From Singulisphaera sp. (GTDB lineage Bacteria > Planctomycetota > Planctomycetia > Isosphaerales > Isosphaeraceae), in contig DAIDJG010000409.1 of the NCBI GenBank assembly GCA_027451445.1, positions 1 through 40,235 on the forward strand: a DNA stretch of 40,235 bases, written 5' to 3'. Of this stretch, positions 6,926-39,309 are shown piece by piece. Every line of letters starts with the position of its first letter. Positions within the stretch are counted from its first letter, which is position 1. The notes under the pieces were generated by a model. That model was not told the origin of the DNA. It made no database searches and was given only the letters and a program-made list of their open reading frames with translations. A program made the position numbers and the translations under genes.

Positions 6926-6945
6926 GCTCGAACGGCCAGAAGAGT

Positions 6946-7430: not shown

Positions 7431-7444
7431 CTATGATGGCGTCA

Positions 7445-8779: not shown

Positions 8780-8917
8780 ATGCCCGACAAATGGCCATTT
8801 GCCGATCCCGAGAACGTCGCCGTGATCACACTCAAACGAATCTTACAGGGTGGGTCACCCATCCTACGGGTCTTCCATGACGAGGACGATGGCGGTTGGC
8901 AATTCTTGCAGATTTGA
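8780..8917 (+). pseudogene. Short DUF2185-like N-terminal fragment
   Basis: A 45-residue frame with GGAGG just 4 bases before the ATG. The sequence FADPENVAVITLKRIL followed by ILRVFHDEDDGGWQFL resembles the start of small DUF2185-like proteins of unknown function, which normally continue for another 30-60 residues. Here TGA follows QFLQI directly, and the next codons in this frame do not resemble the missing part. I therefore read it as a truncated copy. It could still be a short functional gene. It lies within the tRNA-bounded island. Confidence 0.45.
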
Positions 8918-8932
8918 TGCATGGCCACCATC

Positions 8933-9052
8933 TCACATGACGTCCAAAGCCTTTTTCAGTTCCTCCTTCAGCGATTTTGGGTCGGAGACGGCTCTGCCGT
9001 AGCTACTGCGTGCTTCGACAATCAGGGCTGTTTCATGCTCGTCTACCCACAT
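8933..9052 (-). CDS. Possible 39-residue small protein, unknown
   Basis: The frame opens with ATG at 9052, preceded on the minus strand by a GGAGGGGGAG purine run about 5 bases away, which is an unusually good ribosome site. The product contains ALIVEARSSYGRAV and a charged helical tail LKEELKKALDV. I do not recognise it. It points away from the AbiE promoter. It may be a genuine small protein, a leader, or the end of a lost gene. Confidence 0.35.
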   Translation of the reverse strand: MWVDEHETALIVEARSSYGRAVSDPKSLKEELKKALDVM

Positions 9053-9120
9053 GCAACTCCCCCTCCGGGGGCGATGGCGATAAAGGCGGCTTCTTGATCA
9101 CGGGCCTTGCCGAATAACCC

Positions 9121-9156
9121 TTGAGCTTGTAAGGAAAATGGGCTAGAATTCCTTAC
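9121..9156 (+). promoter_or_regulatory. AbiE promoter with overlapping palindromic operator
   Basis: TTGAGC (9121-9126) and TAGAAT (9144-9149) are 17 bases apart. A perfect 8-bp inverted repeat, GTAAGGAA (9129-9136) and TTCCTTAC (9149-9156), overlaps the spacer and the last base of the -10. It ends exactly at the ATG at 9157. The predicted transcript start is about 9156, so the message would have no leader. AbiEi antitoxins are known to bind inverted repeats in their own promoter, and this repeat is the obvious candidate. Confidence 0.7.
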
Positions 9157-9777
9157 ATGAGTTCTACGAGGAAGTCACCGCAAAGCATTGATTCCAGAAT
9201 AGTTGCACGTATCCAAAGACGCGGACGAGGTTCCGTGCTCGTCCCAGGAGATTTCTTTGATCTCGGCAGCCGCGAAGCTGTTGACCTCGCTCTGCACCGC
9301 CTTGCACGGAAAGCCATGATCCGCCGTCTCGCACGTGGCGTGTACGACTTCCCGCAGGAGCACCCCGTGCTCGGGCAGCTCTCGCCGTCCTCAGAGACGG
9401 TCGCGCGAGCTTTGGCCGGACGCGACCGAACCCGGTTACAGCCCGCGGGAGCTTACGCCGCCAACGCGTTGGGGTTGTCCGAGCAGGTGCCGGCGAGGGC
9501 GGTGTTTCTGACCGACGGTCCGAGCCGGACCGTGAAGATCGGCCAGACGACGATCCAGCTTCGGCGGACGACGCCCCGGAACATGGCGGCAGCGGGACGC
9601 TTAAGCGGCCTGGTCATCCAGGCCCTTCGCGAGCTGGGCCAGGAGCACGTGACGCCGGAGCGGATTCGGCACCTAAAACGAACGCTTCCTGCCGACAAAC
9701 GACGGGAACTCCTGAAGGATCTCAAGCTTGCCCCCGCTTGGATGCACCCGATTTTCCGAGAACTCGCCGAGGAGTAG
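9157..9777 (+). CDS. AbiEi-type antitoxin (DUF6088)
   Basis: A 206-residue protein matching the DUF6088 type of AbiEi antitoxins. Residues about 10-75 form a winged helix-turn-helix (SRIVARIQRRGRGSVLVPGDF through ARGVYDFP). The rest contains the family segments LQPAGAYAANALGLS, VFLTDGPSRTVKIG and IQLRRTTPRNMA. In type IV systems the antitoxin does not bind the toxin but represses the operon and counters its effect. The ATG follows the promoter so closely that the message is probably leaderless, and no Shine-Dalgarno is present. The toxin gene starts 2 bases after the stop. Confidence 0.85.
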   Translation: MSSTRKSPQSIDSRIVARIQRRGRGSVLVPGDFFDLGSREAVDLALHRLARKAMIRRLARGVYDFPQEHPVLGQLSPSSETVARALAGRDRTRLQPAGAYAANALGLSEQVPARAVFLTDGPSRTVKIGQTTIQLRRTTPRNMAAAGRLSGLVIQALRELGQEHVTPERIRHLKRTLPADKRRELLKDLKLAPAWMHPIFRELAEE

Positions 9778-21200: not shown

Positions 21201-21580
21201 AGGTGGAGGTCGCGGCCCTGGAAGATCGCTCCCATGCCTCCGCGCGCCAGCTCACCCACGAGCTGATAGCGCGTGGTTGACTCGGGAGACCCGTGACCGT
21301 CCCTTGCAGCAGGTCGGATCAGCGGAGCATCATCACACGACTCGTGCAGGTGGATCCGTGCCGCCGGCATCGCGAAGGGTGCGATCCCCTCTTTACGCGA
21401 TCTTGATGCGTTCGACCCCAGCGCGAACGTGGCTCCGAGGCGAAGCAGACACCGGGGACATAAACCTGCCGGGGAATTACCCGGCAATCGTTCGCCGCAG
21501 TCGGGACATATTCCGACCCCGCGCATCGCACCCATCTCACTCGTGTTCGCATCCGGCACCAGAAGCCACCTCGTTTTCAT
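18281..21580 (-). CDS. Membrane Ser/Thr kinase with zinc ribbon and TPR tail
   Basis: A 1099-residue kinase from the ATG at 21580. The GTG at 21559 is an alternative start with a better ribosome site (GAGGTG 7 bases upstream). A zinc ribbon (C25, C28, C41, C44) precedes the kinase domain, about 105-375. The domain has GELARGGMGAIF as its glycine loop, VIHRDLKPSN as catalytic loop, DWG instead of DFG, and MAPEQA. One membrane helix lies at about 427-447 (LALVVSVLATGVIGAAG). The outer part contains TPR-type repeats at about 670-900 (for example LGKSLLLSGQAAEAADLF). It starts 40 bp after the stop of the ECF sigma gene at 21621 and is surely in one operon with it. The kinase probably senses something outside through the TPR region and modifies the sigma factor; this is inference. 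Confidence 0.88.
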   Translation of the reverse strand: MKTRWLLVPDANTSEMGAMRGVGICPDCGERLPGNSPAGLCPRCLLRLGATFALGSNASRSRKEGIAPFAMPAARIHLHESCDDAPLIRPAARDGHGSPESTTRYQLVGELARGGMGAIFQGRDLHLGRDLAVKVMREEHREHPEMVRRFVEEAQIGGQLQHPGIVPVHELGRLSDGRMFIAMKLVRGRTLAVVLAARRSPDEERMRFIGIFEQVCQTVAYAHSKGVIHRDLKPSNVMVGSFGEVQVMDWGLAKVLDQGGAADDERTVSAGYDASAVRTLRDDSEQMESRAGSILGTPSYMAPEQARGAMDTLDERADVFALGSILCEILTGQPAFVAATTSEVYRKSESADLSDAFQRLDACGADAELLALARSCLAAAPKHRPRDASVVVLGLTAYLRGVEGRLRDAELATARAEARAAGERRRRQLTLALVVSVLATGVIGAAGWRWVDRERRRRLGTVESAVNAALVDSVKKREKAIAAGTAPILWVEAIEAARRAETLLAGSDVSRAQKERVRQFLDELVRQRESIEAVEKDRRIVERLAAVLNDFGVHTDERKASSDYAATFRAYGVDVESLDPSTAGRLLAASPVAAELASALDQWAILRRGWVLRDPAGADRLVAVARAADPDPWRNRLRDTVGHTAGGPTHRLEVLERLAATADVEHLPVTSVTRLATALAILGRRNMAIDLLRQAQASHRDDFWVNADLGRELTAANRSEDAVRFYAVASGVRPQSPLALSGLGKSLLLSGQAAEAADLFREWTRLRPEDPLAHVALGSALLALGKSSDGEGELAEAKRLKPKDWMVRDQVALAFSDRGDWDAAIQEQREAVRLFPAMGVAHKALAHALQSAGRLDEAVAEFREAVRLDPRISASHLFLGRALLEAGEPRGSLDALARIEPGPPPDPFITAGMLTSRAERLLALQSRLPAVIEGCETPANAEEAACFARLAFAQNRPDEAARLWARAFAAAPDLAEDLVAMNRFQAARAAARAGTESDRPLAESGAEWRRQAVEWLRADLAASTTVLNSGTASQRAGIARRLSRWQVDPALASLRDEPALSALPESEQRPLRELWDRVRAACSANSVPVTRRSEPDRNF

Positions 21581-21620
21581 TGCGTCAATGACCGCGAGCG
21601 TTGCGCCCGCCCGCGCGGGC

Positions 21621-22361
21621 TCAAGCTTCCAGGGCGGCAAAAAGAGCCTGAATCTCGTCGTCGACCTGGGTGGAGTCCCCGACGGTCGCCGCGATCTCCT
21701 CGTGCAGCAGGACACCGTAGCGGCGCCGGAGACGGTGGACCGCAACGCGGACGTTCCCTTCGCTGGTCCCCAGCCTACGGGCGATTTCCGCGTAGGGAGT
21801 AGACTCGGGGTCTCGGGTCAGAACAGCGATCAGTTCCTCGAACCTGGCCGACCGGCCCGAGTCGTCGTACTCGCTACGAAGCCGTTCCACGACACGGCTG
21901 AGCAGGGTCAAGGCCCACGTTCGGTCGAAGATCCGGTCCGCGGTCATCTCGTGAGCGGGTTCGAGTGCGTAGCGGCGTTCGGCGTCGAGTGGATCGATCG
22001 CGAGCCGCTGCCGGCCGCCGCCCCGTTTGGCCGCGCTCTGCCGATCGCAATCACCCATCAAATGCCGAGCGCACACCGTGCGCAGAAAGGCGCGGAAGCG
22101 TCCTCGGGAGGGGTCCGCCCTCGCGATCAAGTCGCGTTCCAGTACGTAGGCGAAGAAGTCCTGCGTTCGATCCTCGGCCTGCTCCGGCGAGAACCCCCGA
22201 TGACGGACGAAGGCGTAGATGGGATACCAGTACGCCTGGCACAGCATCGACAAGGCCTCCCGAGCCTGTCCGTCGTCGTGACTCCCGGCCGTCACCACGC
22301 GGCTCCATTGTGTCGTCGGGAATCGGCCTGGAGACCGATCTTCGGTATGAAGTTCCGACAT
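21621..22361 (-). CDS. ECF RNA polymerase sigma factor paired with kinase
   Basis: A 246-residue sigma factor beginning with a TTQWSRV segment, as in kinase-linked planctomycete ECF factors. Region 2 spans about 30-110 (YWYPIYAFVRHRG, then RTQDFFAYVLER and RGRFRAFLRTV). Region 4 spans about 175-225 (PYAEIARRLGTSEGNVRVAVHRLRRRY). The C-terminal 20 residues (TVGDSTQVDDEIQALFAAL) are shared with the paralogue at 25494. There is no anti-sigma gene; the kinase immediately downstream takes that place. An AGG about 8 bases upstream of the ATG is a modest ribosome site. Confidence 0.9.
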   Translation of the reverse strand: MSELHTEDRSPGRFPTTQWSRVVTAGSHDDGQAREALSMLCQAYWYPIYAFVRHRGFSPEQAEDRTQDFFAYVLERDLIARADPSRGRFRAFLRTVCARHLMGDCDRQSAAKRGGGRQRLAIDPLDAERRYALEPAHEMTADRIFDRTWALTLLSRVVERLRSEYDDSGRSARFEELIAVLTRDPESTPYAEIARRLGTSEGNVRVAVHRLRRRYGVLLHEEIAATVGDSTQVDDEIQALFAALEA

Positions 22362-22892: not shown

Positions 22893-25391
22893 TCAGTCGG
22901 GGCCTTGCGCGGCCCTCGTGAGGTCCGCGATCTCGATCCGCCGGTAGTCGACGGGCGCGTCCTGGCTAACCAGCCCGAGGTACCCCGTCGTGCGATCCTT
23001 GCCCGGATGACGTTGGACGTTCATGAACTCGTGAACCTGGCTCAGGTCGGTGTCGAGAATGACAGCACCGTTCAACTCGACGCGAATCGTTGAGCCGCGA
23101 ACGGTGACGACTTGGGTGTTCCACTCGCCGGTCGGGCGGAGGTGGCCTCGCGCTGCGGCGACCATGCCGTAGGCCGATCCCGTGGCCTGGCGCGGGTCGA
23201 TATTGGGAAAACTCGGCTCGTCGAGAATCTGGATCTCGCACATCGCGATTTCCGACGCCAGCCCCGTCCCCGGGTAGCGAATGGCAAGTCCCCCGTTGCC
23301 TCTTGGCGTAAACCGATACTCGACGCGGACGACGAAATCCGAGTATTGATCGCGCGTATAAATGGTTAGCGGCTCGGGCGTTTTCGCGCGGAGGAGGCCG
23401 TCGCGGACCTCGAAGCCGTCGACATCGCCAGCCCAGCCGTCCAGATCCGTTCCGTTGAACAACGGACGGAACACCTCAGGCGTTCGCGCGCTGACGTGTT
23501 GAGCCGGCTCCGACGGGACGAGCGTGTAATTCTCCACAAGCCTTCGGGTCGACGGGGCGAAGGAGGAAATTGCAATCTCGCGTCCGTGGATGATCCCCTC
23601 GTTGTCAAAACCCTGCTTGCCCTGGATGGCTTTCGTGTCTTTGGCGAACCAGTTGATCCGGTCTTTCCTGATCGTGCCCTTGATGTTGTGCACGTTGGCA
23701 CCGGCGTCGAGCCTGGCACGGAACGATTCTCCCTGGCGCTCCAGGACCGTGAGGCGGGTATTGTTTTCGGGTGCGAGCCACACGGTACCCGGCTGGAACG
23801 GATCGGCGGGGGGCGGGACGACGGACTTTGGGGGTCGTGTGGTGGATGCGGTTACGACCGGTCGCGTTGCGACTGGAGTCGGCCCGGTCTTTAGCCACAG
23901 TGTATAGCAGGCCGGGGCGATACCGAACAGGGCCAGCGCGATCAATAGGTACGGGGGTGAAGACCGACGCCGCCGACGCACTCGCTTGGGCAGGGGACGC
24001 GAGACAATCGGGGGCAGTTGTTCCTCCGTCAACTCCTTGTGTCCGCCCTCGGGACGGTAGTCCGTCATGAGGTCCTCGAGCCGCAGGTCGGGATCGAAAC
24101 TCGGCACACGCAACGTCTCGCGGGCGAAAACCGTGGTGTCGCGATCGCGGCGGCCGCGCGGCGAGGCCTTCTTCATGATCCTCCCCGCGAAATCCTTCAA
24201 ATCCGCGCTCGCGTCGCCCGCCTCGCGCGCTGAGGCCCGGCAGGCCTCCAGCGCGAGGATCACGTCACTCATCGTCCCCGGCCGATCCGAGGGACTTTTC
24301 GACATCATTTTTTGGTAGATCGCCTCCACCGCCTGGGGGACTTCTGGCCGAGCGGCGCGCAGTGACGGTGCCGGGCGATCTTGATGGGCCAGGAGCCGTT
24401 TCAGAACGGAATCGCCCTCAAAGGGAGGCGCCCCGGTCAGGAGGAAAAACAACGTGCAGCCGAGGCTGTAGATGTCAGCGCGGCCGTCGACGGACCGGGC
24501 GTCGTCGGCCTGCTCGGGGGCGAGGAAATCCACGGTCCCCAGGTACGCGCCGCTCTCGGTCAGTTTGCCGGAGACCGTCCGGCCGAGCTGACCGGACTGC
24601 TCGATCACACGCGCCAGCCCGAGGTCGAGGACACGGACCGTACCTGCCGGATCGATCATGATGTTGCCGGGCTTGACGTCGCGATGAATCACCCCCTGCT
24701 TGTGCGCAGCCTCGAGCCCGCGCGCAGCCTGGATGACACAATGGAGCGCCAGCTTGAGGTCCATCGCGCCGCCCCTTTCCACGAGGGTGTCGAGGTCGCA
24801 GCCAGGGATGTATTCCATGGTCAGGTAATGGACCCCCCGATCCAGATTGGCCTCGAGCGCCGGGACGAGGTTTGGGTGGTGGAGTCGAGCGGCGACCTGG
24901 AACTCGCGGCGGAATCGCCTCAGCGCGTCCGGGTCGCGCCCGAACGACGGCGGGAGGATCTTCAGGGCAACGACCTGCCCCGACGCACGATGATTCGCCT
25001 TGAAAACGACTCCCATGCCGCCCACGCCGAGCTTGTCCGCCACGAGATAATCGCCGATCAGCAGACCCCGCGCCTTGCCCTGGAGAATTGCTCCCGCCTG
25101 ATACGCGGTCAGCTTTTTGGCTTGAACGAGCACCCGCGCCAGCCGCGAGGGGTCCTCCGAGGCAAGGCTCGCGTGACGTTCGAGCTCCTCGTCCGTCATG
25201 AGCTTCAAATCGCGAAGCGCCGCGAGTTCTTCGGACCACCCGACGACCGCAGCATGTGAGCCCGCACGCGGCGGGTTCCGGATCGTCGTCTCGGAGGAGG
25301 ATGCGTTCATCAGGCAGCGCGGGCAGAGCCCGAGCGGGGCATCCGGCGGCACGTGAAGACCGCACTCGGGACAGCAGGGCGTTGTGCTCAT
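22893..25391 (-). CDS. Ser/Thr kinase fused to a DUF1080 (3-keto-disaccharide hydrolase-like) domain
   Basis: An 832-residue protein. A zinc ribbon (C7, C10, C23, C26) leads a kinase domain at about 112-375. The domain has GVGGMGVVF as glycine loop, VIHRDVKPGN as catalytic loop, DLG instead of DFG, and APEQA; the catalytic Lys is in VALKIL. A membrane helix lies at about 477-497 (LLIALALFGIAPACYTLW), followed by a Pro/Thr linker and a small beta region. About 640-828 is a DUF1080 concanavalin-type domain (FNGTDLDGW, then NGGLAIRYPG, EIQILDE and GEWNTQVV). Secreted DUF1080 proteins act on sugars such as 3-keto-glycosides; here the domain would face the periplasm as sensor or anchor. The sigma gene at 25494 lies 102 bp upstream on the same strand. 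Confidence 0.88.
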   Translation of the reverse strand: MSTTPCCPECGLHVPPDAPLGLCPRCLMNASSSETTIRNPPRAGSHAAVVGWSEELAALRDLKLMTDEELERHASLASEDPSRLARVLVQAKKLTAYQAGAILQGKARGLLIGDYLVADKLGVGGMGVVFKANHRASGQVVALKILPPSFGRDPDALRRFRREFQVAARLHHPNLVPALEANLDRGVHYLTMEYIPGCDLDTLVERGGAMDLKLALHCVIQAARGLEAAHKQGVIHRDVKPGNIMIDPAGTVRVLDLGLARVIEQSGQLGRTVSGKLTESGAYLGTVDFLAPEQADDARSVDGRADIYSLGCTLFFLLTGAPPFEGDSVLKRLLAHQDRPAPSLRAARPEVPQAVEAIYQKMMSKSPSDRPGTMSDVILALEACRASAREAGDASADLKDFAGRIMKKASPRGRRDRDTTVFARETLRVPSFDPDLRLEDLMTDYRPEGGHKELTEEQLPPIVSRPLPKRVRRRRRSSPPYLLIALALFGIAPACYTLWLKTGPTPVATRPVVTASTTRPPKSVVPPPADPFQPGTVWLAPENNTRLTVLERQGESFRARLDAGANVHNIKGTIRKDRINWFAKDTKAIQGKQGFDNEGIIHGREIAISSFAPSTRRLVENYTLVPSEPAQHVSARTPEVFRPLFNGTDLDGWAGDVDGFEVRDGLLRAKTPEPLTIYTRDQYSDFVVRVEYRFTPRGNGGLAIRYPGTGLASEIAMCEIQILDEPSFPNIDPRQATGSAYGMVAAARGHLRPTGEWNTQVVTVRGSTIRVELNGAVILDTDLSQVHEFMNVQRHPGKDRTTGYLGLVSQDAPVDYRRIEIADLTRAAQGPD

Positions 25392-25493
25392 GGAAGGAGG
25401 CCCCCGGGAAACGCTTCGTTGTCGAGGGGGATCTCCGTCAGAGAAGGAAAATCCTCGATGTGTGACGTCGCGGTCTCTTTTTTTGTTTCTGGC

Positions 25494-26231
25494 TCAAACC
25501 GCCAGCGCGTTCAAGAGGATGCTGACCTCGTCGTCGACCTCGCTGGGATCGCCGATGGTGCCCGCGACCTCCTGTCGCAGCAACTCGCGGTAACGGCGAC
25601 GGAGGCGCGTCGCGGCAGCGCGGGCGGCCTCCTCGCTCAGGCCCAACTCGGCGGCGATCGCGGTGTACCCGGCGCGGCCGCCGTCGCCGAGCAGCGCGGA
25701 ACGCAACGCCGAAAACTGTCGGAGCTTACCAGCCTTCGCCATCTCGCCTTCGAGCTGGGCGAGGACACGTTCGAGCACCGTCAGAGCCCAACGACGCTCG
25801 TAGAGCCGCTCGGCGGTGAGTTCGTGCGCGGGCTCTCGGGCGTAGCGCGCCCTGGCGTCGTCCGGGTCGAGTGACAGCATCGCGCGACCGCCGCCGCGCT
25901 TCTGTGCACGCGCGCGTTCGGCTTGGTTCGCGAGATAATGCGTGCACGCCGCGAGCAGGAAGGAGCGGAATCGCCCCTTCCGTCGGTCGAGCGTGGCCAG
26001 GTCCTTTTTCTCCAGGAGGCGGGCGAAGAACCCTTGGACGAGGTCCTCGGCCGAAGCATCGTCGTAACCTTTGCGTCGGACGAACGCATAAAGCGGGTAC
26101 CAGTAGTCGCGGCAGAGCGACTCCAGCGCTTCGCGCGCGCGAGCCGAGTCGCCCCCTCGCACGGCGACGATCCGGCTCCAGCGCGTGGTGCGGAAGCGCT
26201 CGGGATGCTCTCGCGAACCCTCGTCAATCAT
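25494..26231 (-). CDS. ECF RNA polymerase sigma factor paired with DUF1080 kinase
   Basis: A 245-residue sigma factor. The ATG at 26231 is preferred to the longer frame because AGGA lies 8 bases upstream and the alignment with the paralogue at 21621 begins there (FRTTRWSRIV). Region 2 is visible as YWYPLYAFVRRKG, LVQGFFARLLE and RGRFRSFLLAA. Region 4 is YTAIAAELGLSEEAARAAATRLRRRYR. The end (TIGDPSEVDDEVSILLNAL) matches the end of the other factor. The pair 25494/22893 repeats the pair 21621/18281, so the two cassettes look like an old duplication with different sensor ends. Upstream 26232-26475 shows nothing notable. Confidence 0.9.
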   Translation of the reverse strand: MIDEGSREHPERFRTTRWSRIVAVRGGDSARAREALESLCRDYWYPLYAFVRRKGYDDASAEDLVQGFFARLLEKKDLATLDRRKGRFRSFLLAACTHYLANQAERARAQKRGGGRAMLSLDPDDARARYAREPAHELTAERLYERRWALTVLERVLAQLEGEMAKAGKLRQFSALRSALLGDGGRAGYTAIAAELGLSEEAARAAATRLRRRYRELLRQEVAGTIGDPSEVDDEVSILLNALAV

Positions 26232-26475
26232 GGCCGTGATCCTACGAGCGCCAACGCGAGTCCGTCCCCCTCCGGGCATTGAGATTCGGGTCGTGTGGCC
26301 CGTTCCTGGATCGCCCCTTGAGCTTTCGGATTCGCCGAGCCTGACCCTGCTCAGAGACGCGACTCTACCATAGAGGCTTGTAGGATTCTCGACTTACCAG
26401 GCTGATTTCGCTTGGGGGTCGGTATATCAGCCACGCACGAAATAGGGAGCGATTGAACGGAAGGAATTCCCGCGA

Positions 26476-28883: not shown

Positions 28884-29987
28884 TCACGACGCCAAAGTTC
28901 CAAGCAACGCCGGAATAAAGAATGTGGGGATCTCGTCGTGCGGGACGTGCGTCCGTACGAACAGGACGCCGGATGCCAGGAGGGCGGGCCGAACAACCTC
29001 GTCGAAGTTCTCAGGCGAGTGATCGACGACAAGCGAGGCGTCGGTCACGCCACGCAGCTTCGCGAGCTCGGAGCGCAACGCGTCGGCGACCTTTTCCGTC
29101 TGCGTCCGGGGCCGGTAAACGCACACGAAGCGCGACGCGTCTCGACGGCCACCGGCCAGGCGGCCCGACTCGTGCCAGCGCGTGCAGAACCGGACGAAGC
29201 CCGCGACCTTCGACCAGTAGGTGCAGTCGAACAGCCAGACATCCGCCGGCATGCTGCCCGCCCCGGGCCGGATTAATGATGCGTCGACCGCCTCCTCCAG
29301 GGGCAACCCCGCGCCAGAGTGGCCGGCAAGATAAACCCGATCAACGGTGACGCCGCCAGCGAGATATCGACGACCGTCGGGACGATCGAGGCGAGCCAGG
29401 CGCCCCAGGCAGTCCGCCACAAGCGCCCCCAACCGCGAGGCGTCCGCATACTGACCCGCCGGCTCCTTAGCCCAGAACGACCCCTTGGCGAGCGTGCTCA
29501 CTTCCGGCACCAGGACGATGGGCGTCTTGCCGTCGCGGCCCGCGTCCAGTCGGTCGAGTTTGTAGATCAAGGGAGCGGCGAGCTTGGCCGTGGCTCCCGC
29601 GCGACCCGCGTCGTCACCCGCGGCCCAGTCCGGGACGCGCGATCGGCCCGACGCGTCCACCGTCACATAACCGTTATGCCCGTGCAGGTAGACCAGAACG
29701 CTGCTATCCGGACGACGCGCGACGCGGCACCAGACCGCCCGCGCGTCTCGCAGACCATCGGCCGGGACCAGTGGCGCCTCCGGCGAGAATAGCAGGGCCG
29801 TTGTGTCGTCGATCGGCACGTCGCCGCGGACTTCTTCCGGGGCTGCACTGGCGCGCCCGGAGAGATTCCCCCCACCGGACACACCGGCGAGGATGAGGGC
29901 AGCGCGAAGCGCCCGCCGACGGGACCAACACCCCCCGTCCTCGCCATCCCACCGGCCCTGGTGGCCACCCGCGGCGTACATGGACAT
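28884..29987 (-). CDS. Tat-exported alpha/beta-hydrolase-like protein
   Basis: A 367-residue protein from the ATG at 29987, with a GAGG about 3-5 bases upstream; a second ATG lies two codons in. The N-terminus carries a twin-arginine signal (SRRRAL, then AALILAGVSGGG, cleavage near ASAA). LVYLHGHNGYV at about 96-106 resembles the oxyanion side of lipases, and VYLAGHSGAG near 220 is a nucleophile elbow. Late residues VDHSPENFDEVV may supply the His. The substrate is unknown. It stands alone, with a 620-bp gap upstream. I consider hydrolase fold likely and the activity unproven. Confidence 0.65.
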   Translation of the reverse strand: MSMYAAGGHQGRWDGEDGGCWSRRRALRAALILAGVSGGGNLSGRASAAPEEVRGDVPIDDTTALLFSPEAPLVPADGLRDARAVWCRVARRPDSSVLVYLHGHNGYVTVDASGRSRVPDWAAGDDAGRAGATAKLAAPLIYKLDRLDAGRDGKTPIVLVPEVSTLAKGSFWAKEPAGQYADASRLGALVADCLGRLARLDRPDGRRYLAGGVTVDRVYLAGHSGAGLPLEEAVDASLIRPGAGSMPADVWLFDCTYWSKVAGFVRFCTRWHESGRLAGGRRDASRFVCVYRPRTQTEKVADALRSELAKLRGVTDASLVVDHSPENFDEVVRPALLASGVLFVRTHVPHDEIPTFFIPALLGTLAS

Positions 29988-30110
29988 CGCCTCTGCTCCC
30001 ACGACCGACAGTTCGCAGACTCGATCGCTTTCCCCTCCGGGAAGCATACCTGAATTCCTGACGAAGGTCCGTCAGAAATTACGCGACGTTATTTCCACGG
30101 ACGAGATCCC

Positions 30111-30609: not shown

Positions 30610-33600
30610 TCATCGCTTCAGTTCCCGGATCCGCCACCCGGCGGCGTTTTTGGTGGACCCGTGCCAGTATTCGAAGCCGCGTGGGGGCCGAACGCATACC
30701 AGCGACGACCAAGCCTCGTCTTCCAGGTCTCGCAAGAAATAGACCTCAGGGGCCGCCAGGGCCAACTCATAGTAACGCACCGCGTCGTTGGGCTGGCCGA
30801 GGCACTCGGCACTCGCACCGACCAGTCCGAGCGCAAGCAATTTCTCCGCCCCCTCACCCATGACGTCGGCGACCGTTCGGGCATGCCCGAGTGCAGGGGT
30901 CGGCCGTTGGGCCTGGATTTCCAACTGGGCGATTCGGATCCGGGCCCAGGCCCAGGTGTAAGACCCCTTCGGCGCGTCGACCTTGGCGAAACCGGCGACC
31001 AACACGGCTCCATTCGCGGCATGGAATTCCCGGAGCGCGTTGATGCGTGCGAACTCGGCGGCTTCCCACTGGGCGAACGGGCGGAGTGTACCTCGGGGAA
31101 ACTCGCGGACGAGGGCTTCGAGGTAGCGCGGGTCAAGCTGCCGCTCGGCTTCAATGGCGCTGGCCCACGCGTCGTCGAGCCGGTTGCCCTCCTGGTTCCA
31201 GGGCTTCGTCTTGAGCGCCTCGCCGGCCGCCCAGAGCGCTTCCTCGCGCCGCTTACCCGCACGGGCGATGAAGGCATCAAGTGCAGGGCGCAGCTCCTCG
31301 CTAGGGCGATACCGGAACTGGACCTCCAGCATCGTGTGGTCCGCCTTGCGGAAGTCGTCGGGGAGCGACCCACCCTCACCGAGCCAGGCAACCACGTGCC
31401 GAAGGAGCGGCGTTTGCAGCCCATCGCCCGATTCCGGGGGTAGTTGATCTGCGTCGGTTCCATTGCGAGTCAACGGCGCCATGCGCCACCATTCGCCCAT
31501 CTTGGAAACGTCGGGATGGAACCATTGCCCGAGCGTGGCGACGACGACGCGCCCCTCGTGAAACGGCAGCGCGACCACGAGGTTCTTGTCCTTCCAGCCG
31601 ACGACTGCCGAGCCAGGAGGAGCATCGAGCCCGACAGCGCACTTGGCCATCACCGCCTTGAGATCGAGACCCTTGGCGAGCGGGTGGTCCTGAATCAGGT
31701 TGCCCCAGACCCGCACCGGCAACACCTCGCGCTGGGCATGGACGCCAAAGAACGAGAGCAGCGGGTTGGCCAGGCTGGGCGCAGCGCTCAGCCAGCCGGG
31801 CGAGGTCACCACTAGCAGCGAGCCCCCCAGGGCCACGTACGAGCGGAACGCCATGATCTCCGATGGGCGCCAGGCGATGTTTCCGTGCCGCGCCAGGACG
31901 ACCAGCGAATACGGGGCGAGGTTCGCCGCGGTCAACGTGTCGAGATCAAAGGGATGGACCTCATAGCCAAGTGGCCGGAGCACGGGGGCCCATGCCCTCC
32001 ACCCGTCGGCAGCGCCTCCGACGATCAGGGCGCACTTCTTCGGGAACGTGAGCGGCTGCCCGTGCTTCTTCAAGGCCTGGGCCAGGCGCACGCCTTGCTG
32101 GTGTGCGAGCCCGTAGTCGCGGAGGATCGCCTGGTATTCGAGGACGGCCCCAGCCTTGTCTTTCAGGTGTTCGTCGATAATGGCCGCGGCCTCGACCCGA
32201 GCGGCAATGACCTGATTGAGCCAGTGATTTCGCGCGGCCCAACGGGTCTCCCAAACGCTCGGTAGGATTTCGAGCGGTGCGGTGTCCAACTGCGCCGCCA
32301 GGGCCCGGTACGCCTCTCGCGCTTCGCTCCACTGGCTCAGTGCCGCAAGCGACCGCGCCAGGATCGGGTAGAGACGCCACTTCACAAGCGTCACGTCGGG
32401 GAAGATCTTGAGCGCCCGACGCGCATAGCCGGCCTTTTGTTGATCGGTCAGGTACGCACGGATGGTCCCTTCCGTGTCCCGGTAGGTGATCTCGAGCGCA
32501 GTGGCCGTGCCGGTGGCGAAGACGTCCCATTCGGGCGTCCGGTGAGCCTCGGCGGTCTTCAAACACAGATCGAACAGTTCGAGCACCATCCCCGCCATCG
32601 CCTTCGAGTCGGGCGAGCGCTGGGTCGATTCCGAGAGCTTGAAAAACGACTTTCTGAGCAGATCTTCGTATGTGAACTGGTCGCCGGCGGCCTTCGCGTC
32701 GGCGATCACCCGTTCCAGAAGGGTCACAGCCTCGCGGTACCGGTTCAGGTTCATGAGATCCTGCACGATCTGCATACGCATGGCATTGGCCGTGACGCTT
32801 CGGGGCGCCTCGGCGATGAACTGCTGGGCGAGTTCCATGTGCCGTTCGTACTGCTCGGTCTGGTAAAGGGACCAGAGGAGCCACTTGCGGAGGTGGTCGC
32901 GCACCGCGAGCTGCTCGGACGTGAAGGAGTGGGCCAGCCCCTGGTTCGCGGCCTCGATGGCGCGGGGGAATTGCCCGGCGTCGTAGAGCGCGCGGGTGCG
33001 GCCGTAGTGGGCCACGATGTTGTCGGGCTCGAGGAGGAGCACACGCTCGAATGCCGATGCCGAATCGGCGTGGCGCCCCTGGCGCCAGAGCTCCTCGCCG
33101 GCCGCGAAATGGCCCGCCGCTTCGAGTTTCCGCGTGGGCGACGCCGCGCGGATGCGCTTCACCGCGTCGTCAGGCGGCGTAATGGCCAGGTCGGCCGCCA
33201 GCCGCAGGGCCAGGCCTTCGAACAGGTCGGCGAACCGTTCCGTCGCTCCGCTTGCGGTCTCCGTGCGGAGGATCGAGGCCGTGGCCGCGTCGACGAGCCG
33301 GGCCTCGACGCGCAGGTTCGGGCCGATCTCAATGAATGAGCCCAGGATCAGCCGCTGTGCGCCGAGGAGCCGGCCGACCTTCACCGCGGTCGCCGGGTCG
33401 ACCAGCCCGGCCAGGTTCAGTTTCTGCTCGCGGAGAATCGCGTCGAGCTTCGACCGCTCGACCAGCTTCACGTCTTTCAGCCCGCTGAGGTTGGCTTGCA
33501 GAATGTCCGCAAACCCTGCCTCCATTGGCTGCAAACGGGCGGAGGGGCTGAGATTCATGAAGCCCACGACGGCGACGGCCGGCGACTCACCAGGCCGGGG

Positions 33601-35064
33601 CAGGGGAGGGGGGCGGGTCGCCTTGGGATCGACACCAAGCGCGGCGCGGACCTTGTCGGCAAGGTCGCGCTCCAGCTCGAAGAGGTGCGCGGTCTTGCCG
33701 TCGAGCGTCCATTCGGCCAACGGCGCCGCCGCTCCAATGCGCCGGAGAGAGGCCTTCACGGTGATCTTTCCCTCGGAGCCCTTGATCGAGCCCGAGAGCA
33801 ACACGTCGGCTGCCAGCTCGCGCCCGGCGCGTTTGGCGGCCTCCTCGTCGACCAGCCCCGCCTTTCCGAGTTGCGCCTCGCGCAAGAAGCTCTCGACCCG
33901 CCCGCGCTCGACGACGCGCAGCCCTCGGTACGGCGAGAGATCGCCGACGAGCATCTCCACGAGCGCCTTGCGCAGCACCGCCAGCTCGACGCCCGGCCCG
34001 AGGTCGGCGAAGTCGAGGATGGCCAGCACCTCCTCGGGATCCTGGCGGGCGATGGTCACGTCCCAGAGCCGTATGCTCTTATCGAGATAACCCGCGAGAG
34101 CGCGGCGACCGTCGGGGGCGAAGGCCACGGACGTGACGCGGGCGCCTGGCGTCTCGAACGACGCGAGCAGCCGGCCCGTTGCGACGTCCCAGAGGATCAG
34201 AGCCGCGTCGTCGCCGCTGGACAGGGCGCGGCGGCCATCCGGAGCGAGTGCGAGCCGCTGAACCGGCCCCCCGTGAGGCTCATACCGGCGCAGCTCGCGG
34301 CCGGTGTCGATAGCCCACACCCGGATGGACCCGTCGATCGCGCCGGAGAGCCCCGTCCGGCCGTCGGGAGCGAACGCCACGGCTTGCACCCGCCCGGAGT
34401 GCCCCTGGAACCGCCGCACCTCACGGCCCGAGTCGAAATCCCAGAGCCGCACGGTCCCATCCCCGTGTGCCGCCAGCACCTGGCGGCCGTCGGGAGCGAA
34501 CGCCACGCTCGTGACCGGGGCATCCTTCTCCCCGAATCGGCGGATCATCTCGCCGGCGGTTACGTCCCACGTGACGATGGGATTGAAGTCCCAGCTCCCC
34601 GTCACAGCGCGCCCGCCAACGGCCGACACCGCAATGTCGAAGATCATCGCGCGATGCTCGTGCGGATGATGGACCTCACGCCCCGTCTCCAGGTCCCAGA
34701 ACCGCACGACCTGGTCCAACCCCGCCGAGAGCGCAGTCCGCCCATCGGGCGTGACCGCAACGGCGAGCACGTCGTCCTGGTGCCCCTCCATCCGGCGCAG
34801 CTCTCGGCCCGTCGCGACGTCCCAGAGCCGAACGGAGTTGTCCGTCCCAGGCTGGTCCGGACTGCCGCTGCACGACACGAACCGCTGGCCGTCGGGGAGA
34901 AACGCCACGTCGAGGACAGGGTCGGAATGCCCGACATACCGGCGGATCAAGCCGGGCGCAGCCGCCTCCTCCGCCACGAGACCGGGAAGCCCGATCCCCA
35001 CCACGAGCAGACTGAGTATGGCGGTAAGGCGCGGAAACCGAAGGGGACTCACAACATGGCTCAT
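30610..35064 (-). CDS. Exported WD40 - CsgG-like x2 - TPR - GATase-like giant protein
   Basis: A 1484-residue protein. The ATG at 35064 overlaps the stop of the preceding gene as ATGA; the longer frame adds 50 unlikely residues. A signal peptide or anchor (LTAILSLLVVGIGLPGLVA) precedes seven WD40 repeats at about 42-345, each ending in RLWDV-type strands, enough for one closed propeller. Two CsgG/FlgO-like domains follow at about 346-490 (LAILDFADLG) and 495-640 (VAVVGFMNLS). About 650-1000 are TPR helices. About 1005-1230 resembles a GATase/ThuA-type fold (KKCALIVGGAADGW, then GGSLLVVTSPGW) without an evident catalytic triad, and about 1240-1484 is helical again. The second CsgG-like domain has LREQKLNLAGLV, matched by LQEQELNLSGMV in the kinase of the same operon. 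It is probably the output or scaffold of that system in the periplasm. Confidence 0.85.
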   Translation of the reverse strand: MSHVVSPLRFPRLTAILSLLVVGIGLPGLVAEEAAAPGLIRRYVGHSDPVLDVAFLPDGQRFVSCSGSPDQPGTDNSVRLWDVATGRELRRMEGHQDDVLAVAVTPDGRTALSAGLDQVVRFWDLETGREVHHPHEHRAMIFDIAVSAVGGRAVTGSWDFNPIVTWDVTAGEMIRRFGEKDAPVTSVAFAPDGRQVLAAHGDGTVRLWDFDSGREVRRFQGHSGRVQAVAFAPDGRTGLSGAIDGSIRVWAIDTGRELRRYEPHGGPVQRLALAPDGRRALSSGDDAALILWDVATGRLLASFETPGARVTSVAFAPDGRRALAGYLDKSIRLWDVTIARQDPEEVLAILDFADLGPGVELAVLRKALVEMLVGDLSPYRGLRVVERGRVESFLREAQLGKAGLVDEEAAKRAGRELAADVLLSGSIKGSEGKITVKASLRRIGAAAPLAEWTLDGKTAHLFELERDLADKVRAALGVDPKATRPPPLPRPGESPAVAVVGFMNLSPSARLQPMEAGFADILQANLSGLKDVKLVERSKLDAILREQKLNLAGLVDPATAVKVGRLLGAQRLILGSFIEIGPNLRVEARLVDAATASILRTETASGATERFADLFEGLALRLAADLAITPPDDAVKRIRAASPTRKLEAAGHFAAGEELWRQGRHADSASAFERVLLLEPDNIVAHYGRTRALYDAGQFPRAIEAANQGLAHSFTSEQLAVRDHLRKWLLWSLYQTEQYERHMELAQQFIAEAPRSVTANAMRMQIVQDLMNLNRYREAVTLLERVIADAKAAGDQFTYEDLLRKSFFKLSESTQRSPDSKAMAGMVLELFDLCLKTAEAHRTPEWDVFATGTATALEITYRDTEGTIRAYLTDQQKAGYARRALKIFPDVTLVKWRLYPILARSLAALSQWSEAREAYRALAAQLDTAPLEILPSVWETRWAARNHWLNQVIAARVEAAAIIDEHLKDKAGAVLEYQAILRDYGLAHQQGVRLAQALKKHGQPLTFPKKCALIVGGAADGWRAWAPVLRPLGYEVHPFDLDTLTAANLAPYSLVVLARHGNIAWRPSEIMAFRSYVALGGSLLVVTSPGWLSAAPSLANPLLSFFGVHAQREVLPVRVWGNLIQDHPLAKGLDLKAVMAKCAVGLDAPPGSAVVGWKDKNLVVALPFHEGRVVVATLGQWFHPDVSKMGEWWRMAPLTRNGTDADQLPPESGDGLQTPLLRHVVAWLGEGGSLPDDFRKADHTMLEVQFRYRPSEELRPALDAFIARAGKRREEALWAAGEALKTKPWNQEGNRLDDAWASAIEAERQLDPRYLEALVREFPRGTLRPFAQWEAAEFARINALREFHAANGAVLVAGFAKVDAPKGSYTWAWARIRIAQLEIQAQRPTPALGHARTVADVMGEGAEKLLALGLVGASAECLGQPNDAVRYYELALAAPEVYFLRDLEDEAWSSLVCVRPPRGFEYWHGSTKNAAGWRIRELKR

Positions 35065-36041
35065 TTCGCCATCGTCTCCAGGATTCGAGCGAACAGGAAG
35101 CGCGGCGCCGGGCTGGAATCCCACTTGGCGATCACCGCGAAACCGCAAACCAGCAGCCGGCCGCCGCCGGTAAACTCCGCTTCGACCCACGGATAGGCTG
35201 TCGCATCGGAGCACGCCGCCGCTACAACGCGCCCCCGCTCGACCGACAGCCGTAGCGAGCTGGCGACGATCCGGCCGTCGGGGGGCCAGGCCCGGTCATC
35301 GAGCCGCTTGTCGAGCGCGGTGATGGCATCGCGGCCCCGGAAGGTCAGCCGAGCCGGTACCGGAAGCTCCACGTCCGCGTGATCGGGAAGCGGCAAGGTC
35401 CCCACCGAAGGGGCCAGGCAGAGCACGGAAAGGCCCCGCCCAGCCGCTCGGAGCAGGGCCGGGGCAAGCCCGCGCTCGTCCTCGAACGAGATTCCCTCGC
35501 CCACGAGTACGACGCCCTCCGTGCGCTCCGCGATCGCGTCCACGTTGCGCAGCAGCTCGAAGGGGATGCCCATCGCCTCGAGGGTCGGGCTCGTCGTCCG
35601 CTCCGGGTCGAACAGGGCGATCTTCCGGCCGGCCAACCAACGGGCCCGACCGGCGAACGGATCGCGAGGGAAAACCCAAAGTGGTGTCTCGAGGGTCGTG
35701 CCAGCAACGGTGACGGACAGGTCGGCCCGGAGGATGACGCCGTCCTTCACCGGCGGCACGTCCCAGCGCACCGTGAGCCGGCCCGGCTGGCCGGGCGCGG
35801 CAACGACCTCGGCCTCGCCCCGCGCGACCGCGCGCCGATCGACCGTGATGACCCAGGCCGCCCGGCCCCGCATTGCCGCGTCGACGTTCACAGTGAACGG
35901 AAAATCGGCCCGGGTCCCGCCGAACAGATCCGACCAGGGTGCATCCGGCGCGACGACAGCGCGGTCAATCGCGAAGCTTGCCTGTGGCGCGAGGAACAGC
36001 ACGCCGAGGACCCAGACTTGCGAGAGCGTTGGCATAGGCAT
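35061..36041 (-). CDS. Exported protein of unknown function in the kinase operon
   Basis: A 326-residue protein with a signal peptide (SQVWVLGVLFLAP, cleavage near ASFA). Its start lies one base after the stop of the kinase gene and its stop overlaps the next start, so it is a core operon member. The first half is beta-rich (VNVDAAMRGRAAWVITVD, then TLETPLWVFPRDP). The second half has a Rossmann-like alternation (GRKIALFDPERTT, VVLVGEGISFEDERG, LSVLCLAPSVG) resembling a GATase/DUF4350-like fold as in the neighbouring giant protein. I do not recognise the family. The last residues are FLFARILETMAK. Confidence 0.75.
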   Translation of the reverse strand: MPMPTLSQVWVLGVLFLAPQASFAIDRAVVAPDAPWSDLFGGTRADFPFTVNVDAAMRGRAAWVITVDRRAVARGEAEVVAAPGQPGRLTVRWDVPPVKDGVILRADLSVTVAGTTLETPLWVFPRDPFAGRARWLAGRKIALFDPERTTSPTLEAMGIPFELLRNVDAIAERTEGVVLVGEGISFEDERGLAPALLRAAGRGLSVLCLAPSVGTLPLPDHADVELPVPARLTFRGRDAITALDKRLDDRAWPPDGRIVASSLRLSVERGRVVAAACSDATAYPWVEAEFTGGGRLLVCGFAVIAKWDSSPAPRFLFARILETMAK

Positions 36042-36042
36042 A

Positions 36043-38301
36043 TCACTTCTTCACGAGTTTGGGGAGTACCCGCTCGGCAACCACCGCGGCAGCCTCCTGG
36101 AGTGCGGACTTGCCCGCGACCTGCTCGGCCAGGTCGACCGCGCGGACCGTCTGGCGGTCGACGGCCAGGACGTTGCCCGTCTTGCGATCGATGGCCTTGA
36201 CCTCGACTCTGGCCTTGACCGAGACGAGGTTGCCGTGACGGCCGGCGAACTCACTGAAGCCCTCGCCACGAATCAAGATATCGGCCTTCTCTTGATCCGC
36301 GGTATCGAGGACCGTGAAGCCGGTCTCCTTGCAGAACAACACGAGCTCGGTCTCTGCCGCCGGGTCGATCGTGGGCACGCCTACATGCCGCTCGACGATC
36401 GTGACGCAAACAGACGGCCGGTCCGCTTTCGGGAGCGCCCGCTTCACGGCGGCCACGCGGTCGACGACGGGTGCTGGCCTGGTGACGATGATGTGCCCCT
36501 CCTTCTCGACAGCCTCCGCGATCTTACCCGCGAGTGTCTCGACCAAAGGCCCGAATTCATCGCTCGACCGCCCCCGGATCGACGCGCCCAGCGTGCGTCC
36601 GGTCTCGGTGCTGATGACCTTGGCAACAACATAGATAGTCTTGTCGACCTGGAAGACGGACCCGGTAATCAAAAGCTTGGCGCCGGTGAGCTGGCCGACC
36701 CTTGTCGCCCCACCTTCCTTGACCATGCCCGAGAGGTTCAGCTCCTGCTCCTGAAGCGTACGGTCCAGCTCGGCGCGATCAACCAGCAGCAACTTGGGGG
36801 TGGCTGTGAGTCGGGCGAACAGGATATCGCTGGTTTGCGCACCGAGCGCTTTGACGTCCGCTCCGCGCTCCTCGAAAGGGAGGATCGCGGCCGGATAAAC
36901 TTCTGCGTTCGCTTTCGCTTCCGCGTCGGCTGCGGGCTGGCGATCCGGCGCGGCCGGTTCCGCAACCTGGACCGGCGCGGCAGGAGTCGGCGAGCTGAAC
37001 CGAACGAACCGCCAGCTCCCCTGACCAAGCCCGGCCAACGCCGCCAGGCCGAACAGCCCACACGCCGCCACGGCCCACAACGTGCCGCGCTTCCGGGCTG
37101 GGCGCGGCGCGGCTTCTCGGAATCCGAGCTCGCAACGGCCGAGCTCCTCGGCAACAACAACCGCGGACTCGGGGCGACGCTCAGGGTCCTTGGCGTGCAA
37201 TGCCTCGATCAGGCGGACGAGTGCGTCGGGAACCCGGGGATTGAGCGCGGTAATCGAGGGGGCCGGCTGCTCGCTGACGAGCCGGACGGTCGCGAGGTCC
37301 GAACGACCCCAGAACGGAGGCTTGCCCGTGCACATGGCGTAGAGCACACTCCCCAAGCTGAACAGATCGCAACGGTGGTCGAGCGGATCGCCGTTCGCCT
37401 GCTCGGGAGCCATGTAGGACGGGGTGCCGATGAGGGCGCCGTCGACACTCAGGCTGGAGTCGCCGCCGATCGGCCGGGCGAGGCCGAAGTCAAGCACGAC
37501 GACGCGTCCCTCTTCCCCTTCCAGCCAGATGTTGTCTGGCTTCAGATCGCGATGGATCAAGCCGCTCGCATGGGCGGCGACGAGCGCCTCGGCGATTTCG
37601 CGACCGATCCTCGCGACCTCGACCGGCGGCAGTGCCCCGATCCGTCGGATCCGTGCTTCGAGCGACTCGCCGCGCAGCAAGGGCATCGCCAGGTAAGGGA
37701 TGCCTCGATCCTCTCCCACACGGTGGATTGCGACGACGTGATCGTTCCGGATGGAAGCGGCTGCCTGGGCCTCGCGCAAGAACCGCAGCCGGGCCGATTC
37801 GCTGGCGGCGAGCGCGGGCCGCATCACCTTCAAGGCCACGAGCCGATTCAATGCCGCTTCCTCAGCGCGGTAGACGATTCCCATGCCCCCCGAACCGATC
37901 CGGCTCAGAACTCGGTAAGGACCGAGCCGGCCGATCTCGTCGGGCGACGCGGGCGGGGCCAGGAAGTCGTTGCACTCGGTGGCGAGCGTAAATGTCGACT
38001 CCCCTGTGCCGCCGCCCGTGACGGTGGGTGAGCCTCCGCCGGATGAGAAAGACACCAGGAGTTTGCTCATACGCATCACGAGCGCCTCGACCGGCTCTTC
38101 GTCGAGTGAGTCGGCCGGACCGGACTGGGCCCGCATCGCGTCGACCAGCGGGTCGACGGCCGCGACGTGACCGGCGGCATCAAGACAACGGCCGCAGCTC
38201 GCGAGGTGCCGGCTCACTTGTACCGCTTCGTTTTCCGGGAGCCGGCCCAGTAGGAAGCGGCTCAGGTCTTCGTGCACGAAACAGCCTGGATTCGCGATCA
38301 T
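36043..38301 (-). CDS. Ser/Thr kinase with anti-sigma zinc motif and CsgG-like tail
   Basis: A 752-residue protein. Residues 1-45 hold an anti-sigma-type zinc site, H32-x3-C36-x2-C39 (RHLASCGRC). The kinase domain (about 127-395) has GSGGMGIVYRAEE, VALKVM, LIHRDLKPDN, a regular DFG and MAPEQA. One membrane helix lies at about 405-425 (LWAVAACGLFGLAALAGLG). Beyond it, about 475-610 is a CsgG/FlgO-like domain (AAILPFEERG, then LVDRAELDRTLQEQ and LLITGSVFQVD). The final 140 residues form another alpha/beta domain (ADILIRGEGFSE, LVSVKARVEVKAID) that I cannot name. The ECF sigma gene at 38695 lies upstream on the same strand. The zinc motif suggests direct binding of that sigma factor, with release controlled by phosphorylation; this is inference. 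Confidence 0.9.
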   Translation of the reverse strand: MIANPGCFVHEDLSRFLLGRLPENEAVQVSRHLASCGRCLDAAGHVAAVDPLVDAMRAQSGPADSLDEEPVEALVMRMSKLLVSFSSGGGSPTVTGGGTGESTFTLATECNDFLAPPASPDEIGRLGPYRVLSRIGSGGMGIVYRAEEAALNRLVALKVMRPALAASESARLRFLREAQAAASIRNDHVVAIHRVGEDRGIPYLAMPLLRGESLEARIRRIGALPPVEVARIGREIAEALVAAHASGLIHRDLKPDNIWLEGEEGRVVVLDFGLARPIGGDSSLSVDGALIGTPSYMAPEQANGDPLDHRCDLFSLGSVLYAMCTGKPPFWGRSDLATVRLVSEQPAPSITALNPRVPDALVRLIEALHAKDPERRPESAVVVAEELGRCELGFREAAPRPARKRGTLWAVAACGLFGLAALAGLGQGSWRFVRFSSPTPAAPVQVAEPAAPDRQPAADAEAKANAEVYPAAILPFEERGADVKALGAQTSDILFARLTATPKLLLVDRAELDRTLQEQELNLSGMVKEGGATRVGQLTGAKLLITGSVFQVDKTIYVVAKVISTETGRTLGASIRGRSSDEFGPLVETLAGKIAEAVEKEGHIIVTRPAPVVDRVAAVKRALPKADRPSVCVTIVERHVGVPTIDPAAETELVLFCKETGFTVLDTADQEKADILIRGEGFSEFAGRHGNLVSVKARVEVKAIDRKTGNVLAVDRQTVRAVDLAEQVAGKSALQEAAAVVAERVLPKLVKK

Positions 38302-38485
38302 CGTGGCCTCGGAGCGATCACGTCGCCGGCAGAAATTCGACCCGGTTACGGGAGAGTGAAGGGCTGGAATCGCCCTTCTCCAAAGAGACTATGCGCCGAG
38401 GTCGCAAAACCTGACAGGCTCGCGGACGATTAGGGTCCGGGCAAGAATAATCTCTACAAATTAAAGCAGATTCATTCCTGGATCT

Positions 38486-38644
38486 GGGAGGGCGAGGCTC
38501 CGTCCGAGCCAGCTTTGATCCTGCGGCGAGTCTTCGAGCCGCAGGATCACCGCGAGCCGACGCCCGCGCACCACACGCGATGTTCCAATGACTCGAAGAC
38601 TCGTCATCGGAACAAGGCTGGCTCGGACGGAGCCTCGCCCTCCC
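38486..38644. repeat. MITE-like element with 28-bp perfect inverted repeats
   Basis: Bases 38486-38513, beginning GGGAGGGCGAGGCTCC, are the exact reverse complement of 38617-38644. The 100-base centre has further symmetry around GAGTCTTCGAG and CTCGAAGACTC. No coding capacity. It lies between the sigma gene stop (38695) and the kinase start (38301), so a transcript joining them must cross this hairpin. A half copy exists at 22568. The rest of 38302-38694 shows nothing else. Confidence 0.75.
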
Positions 38645-38694
38645 GATGTCCTCGAAGCCGTAAAAAGTTGCTCACTTTATTTTTGCCCGCGCCC

Positions 38695-39309
38695 TTAGTC
38701 GAGCAAACCTTCCAGCTCCGTCCTGAGCCGCCGAAGCACGCGTGACTTGGCTGTGTAGACAGCGTCCGGAGAGATCCCCAGCTCGTTCGCCACCTCGGCA
38801 GCGGGCCGGCCCGAAACGACGTGCTCCCAGCAGGCTTTCCAGGTCGAGGGCTGGAACTCCGATTTCATCAGCTTCAGGGCGCGGTCGACGAGGTGACGGC
38901 GGTATTCGTGTTCGTCATAGGCTTCGAGATCATCGGGTACCGACAGCTCATCCAGCCGAGGATCGCCGTCGTCCCGCGCCGGCAGCCGCCGACGCCTTTG
39001 CATTTCGCGCCACTTGTTGAGCGTGACAGTCCGAAGCCAACCCCGAAAGGTCCCTTGCCGGTCATACCGAAACTCGGGGAGCTTCTGAACCAGGACCAGG
39101 AAAACTTCCTGCACGAGGTCCGCGGCGTCTGCGGCGGACAATCCCGCGCGATGCGCCCAGTGATAGATCAGCGGCGTGAAGAGCTCGGCGCAACGCCGCC
39201 AGGCTTCCGGTTCCCCCGGGCCGCGCAGGCGCTCGAGCAAGCTCACCGGAGTAGGCTTCTCCGCGACGTCTGCTCCAGGGAAATTGGCACCCGTCTCGCT
39301 CTTCGGCAT
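38695..39309 (-). CDS. ECF RNA polymerase sigma factor of the CsgG-kinase system
   Basis: A 204-residue sigma factor. The ATG at 39309 has GGGAG 8 bases upstream; the longer frame adds 44 low-complexity residues. Region 2 is at about 30-95 (LIYHWAHRAGLSAADAADLV, then FRGWLRTVTLNKW). Region 4 is at about 145-200 (RPAAEVANELGISPDAVYTAKSRVLRRL). It is of a different ECF type from those at 21621 and 25494, lacking their TTxWSR start and VDDE end. It heads the block of kinase, exported protein and WD40/CsgG protein. Confidence 0.88.
   Translation of the reverse strand: MPKSETGANFPGADVAEKPTPVSLLERLRGPGEPEAWRRCAELFTPLIYHWAHRAGLSAADAADLVQEVFLVLVQKLPEFRYDRQGTFRGWLRTVTLNKWREMQRRRRLPARDDGDPRLDELSVPDDLEAYDEHEYRRHLVDRALKLMKSEFQPSTWKACWEHVVSGRPAAEVANELGISPDAVYTAKSRVLRRLRTELEGLLD

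Follow-up and report, generated by a model that had tools for sequence, protein, structure and literature searches.

The stretch analysed here, referred to as the window, comprises 40,235 nucleotides of a Singulisphaera sp. contig and carries, between positions 30610 and 39309, genes for an ECF sigma factor, a kinase, an exported partner and an exported giant protein. All four predicted open reading frames are present on the minus strand, in keeping with the same-strand arrangement of the original prediction. The features of the locus are as follows.

38695..39309, minus strand: ECF sigma factor, 204 aa; Sigma70_r2 and TIGR02937 matches, DAAD in region 2.2.
38440..38680, no strand: interspersed palindromic repeat, inserted between the sigma and kinase genes.
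36043..38301, minus strand: fusion of zinc finger, Ser/Thr kinase, one membrane helix and tail, 752 aa; from profiles, hydropathy and motifs.
38185..38277, minus strand: zf-HC2 anti-sigma-type zinc finger, kinase residues 9-39; PF13490, 27.4 bits (cut-off 22.2).
37156..37917, minus strand: protein kinase domain, residues 129-382; PF00069, 152 bits.
37024..37086, minus strand: transmembrane helix, residues ~406-426; highest hydropathy window of the protein, preceded by RPARKR.
36499..36906, minus strand: tail domain 1; CsgG profile by sequence, TolB-N-like by predicted fold.
36046..36477, minus strand: tail domain 2; no Pfam match, CsgG/PelC/TraT/LptE-like predicted fold.
35061..36041, minus strand: exported partner, 326 aa; signal peptide, Ig-like sandwich (28-126) and GATase1/flavodoxin-like domain (~133-326).
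30610..35064, minus strand: exported giant, 1484 aa; WD40 propeller, two CsgG-like domains, TPR and DUF4350/GATase-like domain.
34051..34947, minus strand: WD40 propeller of the giant; PF00400, 175 bits.
33781..33966, minus strand: CsgG-like domain 1 of the giant (match core); 26.7 bits, above cut-off.
33319..33600, minus strand: CsgG-like domain 2 of the giant (match core); 40.8 bits, 34% identical to the kinase tail.
31465..32037, minus strand: DUF4350/GATase-like domain of the giant, residues ~1010-1200; matches the giant of locus L098, E 9e-30.

The last three genes are tightly joined, as had been claimed, with 1 bp between kinase and partner and an ATGA overlap between partner and giant. 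The sigma gene is not part of this chain, being separated from the kinase by a 393-bp gap that consists largely of the palindromic repeat, compared with gaps of mostly 15-219 bp in the related sigma-kinase pairs of this genome. The repeat itself occurs in approximately 40 genomic copies of 85-95% identity, with matches on both strands. Two further ECF sigma/Ser-Thr kinase pairs are found in the window at 18281-22361 and 22893-26279, the kinase of one ending with TPR repeats and that of the other with a 3-keto-disaccharide hydrolase domain. Also present are a large protein with ThuA, DUF7133 and cytochrome c domains (13697-18034) and, downstream of the giant on the same strand, a 387-aa open reading frame (28884-30047) that lacks a Pfam match, contains a GHSGAG motif and is perhaps an alpha/beta hydrolase.

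The sigma factor possesses sigma2 and sigma4 regions without sigma1.1 or sigma3, the composition typical of the ECF family. It matches Sigma70_r2 (PF04542) with 46 bits (cut-off 24) and TIGR02937 with 71.1 bits (cut-off 42.9) over residues 35-199 of 204, while the sigma4 Pfam model alone reaches 19.2 bits, below its cut-off of 25.7. ECF sigma factors encoded beside a Ser/Thr kinase, as in the window, are known from the ECF43 pair EcfP-PknT and from the planctomycete groups ECF59, ECF61, ECF62 and ECF217 (PMC8999054). The ECF43-type sigma factors have a region 2.2 devoid of the acidic DAED and furnished with a phosphorylatable Thr, the motif of EcfP being STTA (PMC8999054). Because the window sigma factor, unlike EcfP, keeps an acidic DAAD at this position, its activation by phosphorylation of the region 2.2 motif is unlikely, and an anti-sigma-style holding of the sigma factor by the kinase is the better guess.

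The kinase has features that would suit such a role. The anti-sigma-type H-x3-C-x2-C reported ahead of the kinase domain is borne out both by the zf-HC2 match and by the motif HLASCGRC at residue 32, which conforms to the class I zinc anti-sigma factors; this zinc finger is probably a sigma-binding inhibitor. The catalytic motifs GSGGMG, VALK, HRDLKPDN and DFG are intact, and the P-loop glycines, VAxK, HRDxxxxN and DFG of Hanks-type kinases lie at positions 136, 155, 250 and 271, respectively. The domain also scores against PADLOC kinases such as PD-T4-6, and the kinase, WD40 and TPR parts of the locus are reminiscent of bacterial immunity modules. A conflict or defence system would likewise suit the patchy presence of the tail, which occurs within the order in one of 45 genomes, that of the window. 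Within the class, 33 of 397 genomes have it. The PADLOC matches are generic, however, as they are confined to the kinase domain and lack system partners; the giant, partner and tail have no PADLOC match at E 0.001, and the partner and giant begin with signal-peptide-like helices. A defensive function is thus very improbable.

Beyond the membrane helix, the kinase continues into a tail for which a CsgG-like assignment had been proposed. This assignment holds in profile searches, with CsgG (PF03783; cut-off 20.8) scoring 43.1 bits in the full kinase, 46.8 bits when the tail is searched by itself and 63.7 bits in the giant, where two stretches match, and it holds in structure comparison also. The predicted model of the tail (pLDDT 91.8) consists of two domains of related fold (26-161 and 169-312), the second of which had escaped the original prediction. 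Domain 1 resembles the N-terminal domain of TolB (2hqs; VIA Z 14.4 over 122 residues, rmsd 2.7), FlgT (Z 13.2) and LpoB (Z 11.2), and domain 2 resembles CsgG (6l7a; Z 12.4) as well as PelC, TraT and LptE. In a sequence search of PDB entries, the tail profile gives a weak match to CsgG (E 0.03) and none to TolB. Neither likeness extends to the hallmarks of the known proteins. Unlike the curli secretion channel, of whose 246 residues approximately 137 are aligned, tail domain 2 (144 aa, strands of 13-15 residues) has short turns in the model where CsgG has its two membrane-spanning β-hairpins. The tail also has no lipobox Cys, being kinase-fused and anchored by the kinase helix or, in relatives, exported and soluble; the signal helix of the giant is likewise not followed by a Cys. 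In contrast to TolB, no C-terminal propeller occurs in the same chain, the tail ending instead in its CsgG-like domain and the WD40 propeller belonging to the giant. CsgG, PelC, TraT and FlgT are ring formers, whereas TolB-N and LpoB bind other envelope proteins. Since the tail combines a TolB-N-like domain with a hairpin-less CsgG fold, the model portrays it as periplasmic and soluble, akin to proteins that form rings in association with the outer membrane, and not as a secretion pore.

The giant was said to contain two more CsgG-like domains, and both exceed the cut-off individually. A scan of the whole genome (10.9 Mb) with the Pfam CsgG model yields three domains and no more, all of them at this locus. 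The stretch said to be shared between the two proteins is also present, as LQEQELNLSGMV at kinase residue 516 and LREQKLNLAGLV at residue 544 of the giant, within an alignment of the tail to the second CsgG-like domain that reaches E 1e-17. As phmmer gives 58.3 bits for this pair against a maximum of 16.2 bits in 2000 shuffles, the likeness is beyond chance and the two domains are homologous. The closest giant to that of the window, from locus L098, has 3-keto-disaccharide hydrolase domains in place of WD40 and matches PF14258 in the part corresponding to the DUF4350/GATase-like domain (32.0 bits, cut-off 30.4); another giant carries FGE-sulfatase. From these examples, the common plan of the giants is a CsgG-type pair with a variable module, such as WD40, 3-keto-disaccharide hydrolase, FGE-sulfatase or others. 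Profile searches assign the partner to none of the Pfam or NCBIfam families, and its sequence profile has no convincing relative among solved structures. Its model (pLDDT 93.6) matches the C-terminal part of 8u01 with a VIA Z of 12.4, and from this match and the order of fold elements its second domain is read as GATase1/flavodoxin-like. Both this fold, with its Ig-like companion, and the DUF4350/GATase-like domain of the giant were overlooked in the original prediction.

Kinases and WD40 proteins are expanded in Gemmataceae (PMC11032199). Eight zinc-finger kinases were found in the genome of the window, all of them near an ECF sigma gene and seven with the sigma gene directly upstream. The kinase of the window clusters with the others in a tree (100/99), and the parts that follow the membrane helix, as read from sequence, differ among the eight and include WD40 and FGE-sulfatase-like domains. 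Because all eight are sigma-linked while their C-terminal parts vary, the tail appears to occupy the sensor slot of a zinc-finger kinase.

What the tail does outside of this slot is indicated by its relatives. A search with the partner led to relatives in a distant family, where the counterpart of the kinase tail stands alone as an exported protein of 317-322 aa, encoded next to the partner and to giants that combine a pair of N-terminal CsgG-like domains with WD40-like parts. A profile built from ten such tails detects 80 loci, mainly in Planctomycetota, Kiritimatiellota, Lentisphaerota and Verrucomicrobiota, with few others. This overturns the view of the module as lineage-specific that had been suggested by the partner alone, which matched four genomes among 118 relatives. 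The usual order, on one strand, is ECF sigma, a gene of ~260 aa, partner, tail and CsgG giants. The loci were picked by the tail alone, are related by descent and so non-independent, and include many MAG fragments. Among them, 46 of 67 have an ECF sigma gene on the same strand no more than 4.5 kb upstream of the tail (expected ~0.025 per locus). The partner is encoded up to 1.5 kb upstream of the tail at 72 of 77 loci, and 45 of 65 have a CsgG giant up to 2.5 kb downstream of it. The expectation that the four genes would be found together elsewhere is therefore upheld in part: the exact set is rare and most relatives lack the kinase, but an operon of tail, partner and CsgG giants is conserved across many PVC genomes. 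In L036, L071, L072 and L073, giants are serial and apparently duplicated, with four of them in L073. The tail also occurs on MAG contigs labelled Desulfobacterium (L131) and Candidatus Zipacnadia (Armatimonadota; L150), which suggests transfer or contig misbinning.

The gene between sigma and partner encodes, in nearly every member, a protein with one hydrophobic helix near residues 50-100. The H-x3-C-x2-C occurs in six members from divergent loci, and the sole member tested for zf-HC2, from L071, scores 36.3 bits, above the cut-off. One anti-sigma group can mix zinc and non-zinc forms (PMC7406223). Anti-sigma and sigma are also missing together, the former being absent from 20 of 21 sigma-less loci, and the ~260-aa product is interpreted as a one-helix membrane anti-sigma factor. 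Roughly one in three tail loci is without a linked sigma gene, which shows that a sigma factor encoded nearby need not accompany the exported part.

Dyad counting upstream of the sigma genes of this ordinary module exposed an ECF-type promoter, CAAAGATT-N14-GTCTAA. With up to three mismatches allowed, and with discovery and counting made on one and the same locus set, it is found within 250 bp upstream of sigma at 33 of 46 loci, whereas the opposite strand gives five and shuffled sequences 0-4; L109 and L110 have an exact copy upstream of the partner also. This distribution fits autoregulation of the sigma factor in the ordinary module. No site of this type is found near the operon in the window, as would be expected if the window sigma factor belongs to another group, and inspection by eye of the regions upstream of this genome's zinc-kinase sigma genes revealed no clear common motif. 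A promoter upstream of sigma would suit a plain expression switch, with the operon building a ring-like outer-membrane or secretion-type structure and the sigma factor and kinase merely turning it on, without any readout of assembly. The ring-forming fold relatives of the tail lend themselves to this idea. Nevertheless, the CsgG membrane hairpins are absent from the tail model, and the tail is itself repeatedly fused to kinases, which makes it part of the regulator; such a construction operon is improbable, albeit less so than a defence system.

These fusions take different forms. In L186, a complete planctomycete genome of another family, a full-length homologue of the window kinase (36% identity over 783 aa) has the H-x3-C-x2-C and its own sigma factor, which is 41% identical to that of the window. 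Positions 2037-9348 of this locus encode, in a row, a CsgG giant, the sigma factor, the zinc-kinase-tail fusion and a second, separate tail; the partner was not detected there. In L136, a kinase of another type is joined to the tail, with its own ECF sigma gene upstream and the partner downstream. The fusion of L188 is partial, its kinase frame holding the first tail domain only, and the long open reading frames of L068, L070 and L077, considered as further tail fusions, are probably shadow reading frames upstream of the normal start. Trees of the tails and of the kinases both exclude a single origin for all fusions, which arose at least twice; a third origin is possible, but only two are claimed because the fusions of the window and L186 may go back to a single event and have changed afterwards. 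That the tail has been fused more than once to kinases linked with sigma genes connects it to the regulator and provides Rosetta-stone evidence that it feeds the sigma factor, a coupling that is well supported on these genomic grounds. In the window, the sigma factor and zinc-finger kinase stand where sigma and anti-sigma normally sit, and the kinase ends in the tail. As most relatives have no kinase, that of the window appears to be a lineage-specific stand-in for the ordinary anti-sigma factor. Thus far, the architecture, the conserved operon with its promoter and the repeated fusion can all be read from the sequences themselves.

Taken together, the locus is best explained as an envelope-surveillance ECF sigma circuit in which a periplasmic assembly domain is wired to a kinase/anti-sigma factor, a reading given a probability of about 0.5. 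The ordinary circuit would comprise an autoregulated ECF sigma factor, a one-helix anti-sigma factor, an exported partner, an exported tail and large CsgG-domain proteins. In the window, the sigma/anti-sigma pair would have been swapped for a sigma factor with a zinc-finger Ser/Thr kinase, of which the tail forms the periplasmic part. Domain likeness suggests that the tail binds its counterpart domains in the giant within the periplasm, as the original prediction also supposed. The membrane helix would then transmit a changed state of assembly to the kinase, and the kinase would release or modify the sigma factor held by the zinc finger, possibly after phosphorylation. We infer this direction of signalling, the binding of sigma and the action of the kinase upon it; homo-oligomerisation of the tail, or its binding to ligands of the cell wall or outer membrane, would be just as conceivable.

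The last of these options, in which the tail is an exchangeable sensor of a ligand such as peptidoglycan or an outer-membrane lipoprotein, and the giant and partner are targets or passengers that make no contact with it, is the nearest competitor, although on balance unlikely. It would account for the many different C-terminal parts that the zinc-finger kinases of this genome carry beside sigma genes, for the binding of other envelope proteins by the fold relatives TolB-N and LpoB and for the partner-less locus of L186. It accounts less readily for the mutual homology of the tail and giant domains, or for the co-travelling of tail, partner and CsgG giants at most loci, even those that are free of kinases. 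The surveillance circuit can be extended, tentatively, to a PVC-wide system in which a homologous TolB/CsgG-type domain serves both as periplasmic sensor and as assembly domain of large envelope proteins, such that recognition between like domains would set sigma activity, and in which the sensor has been fused to a kinase/anti-sigma factor in several lineages. This wider proposal is rather less likely than not.

Among known systems, the ordinary form of the module fits the plan of ECF sigma factors with membrane class I anti-sigma factors (RpoE-RseA and the zinc types), to which the Hx3Cx2C domain, one membrane helix and a periplasmic sensor part are common. The window departs from this plan in the kinase domain between zinc finger and helix, and in a periplasmic part that comes from a separate conserved operon. 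It departs from ECF43 EcfP-PknT-type pairs in the addition of the anti-sigma zinc finger and TolB-N/CsgG tail to the kinase. Planctomycete ECF-kinase pairs are already known, while the module operon and the kinase-tail fusion are apparently undescribed: among the searchable papers, few of them subscription ones, no account was found of an operon of sigma, anti-sigma, partner, tail and CsgG giant, or of a kinase-tail fusion.

Planctomycete genomes encode very many sigma-kinase pairs, few of them with a known input. In the present case, the sensing portion corresponds to a conserved protein that exists independently, in an operon with a promoter and partners of its own, which opens input, regulator and output to joint testing. 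Three unnamed families, the tail, partner and anti-sigma factor, gain a shared context across several phyla, and a kinase is seen to replace an anti-sigma factor at an equal genetic position. The repeated fusion suggests what an undescribed operon senses through and, if recognition between like domains proves true, the cell would be checking the assembly of its own envelope complex.
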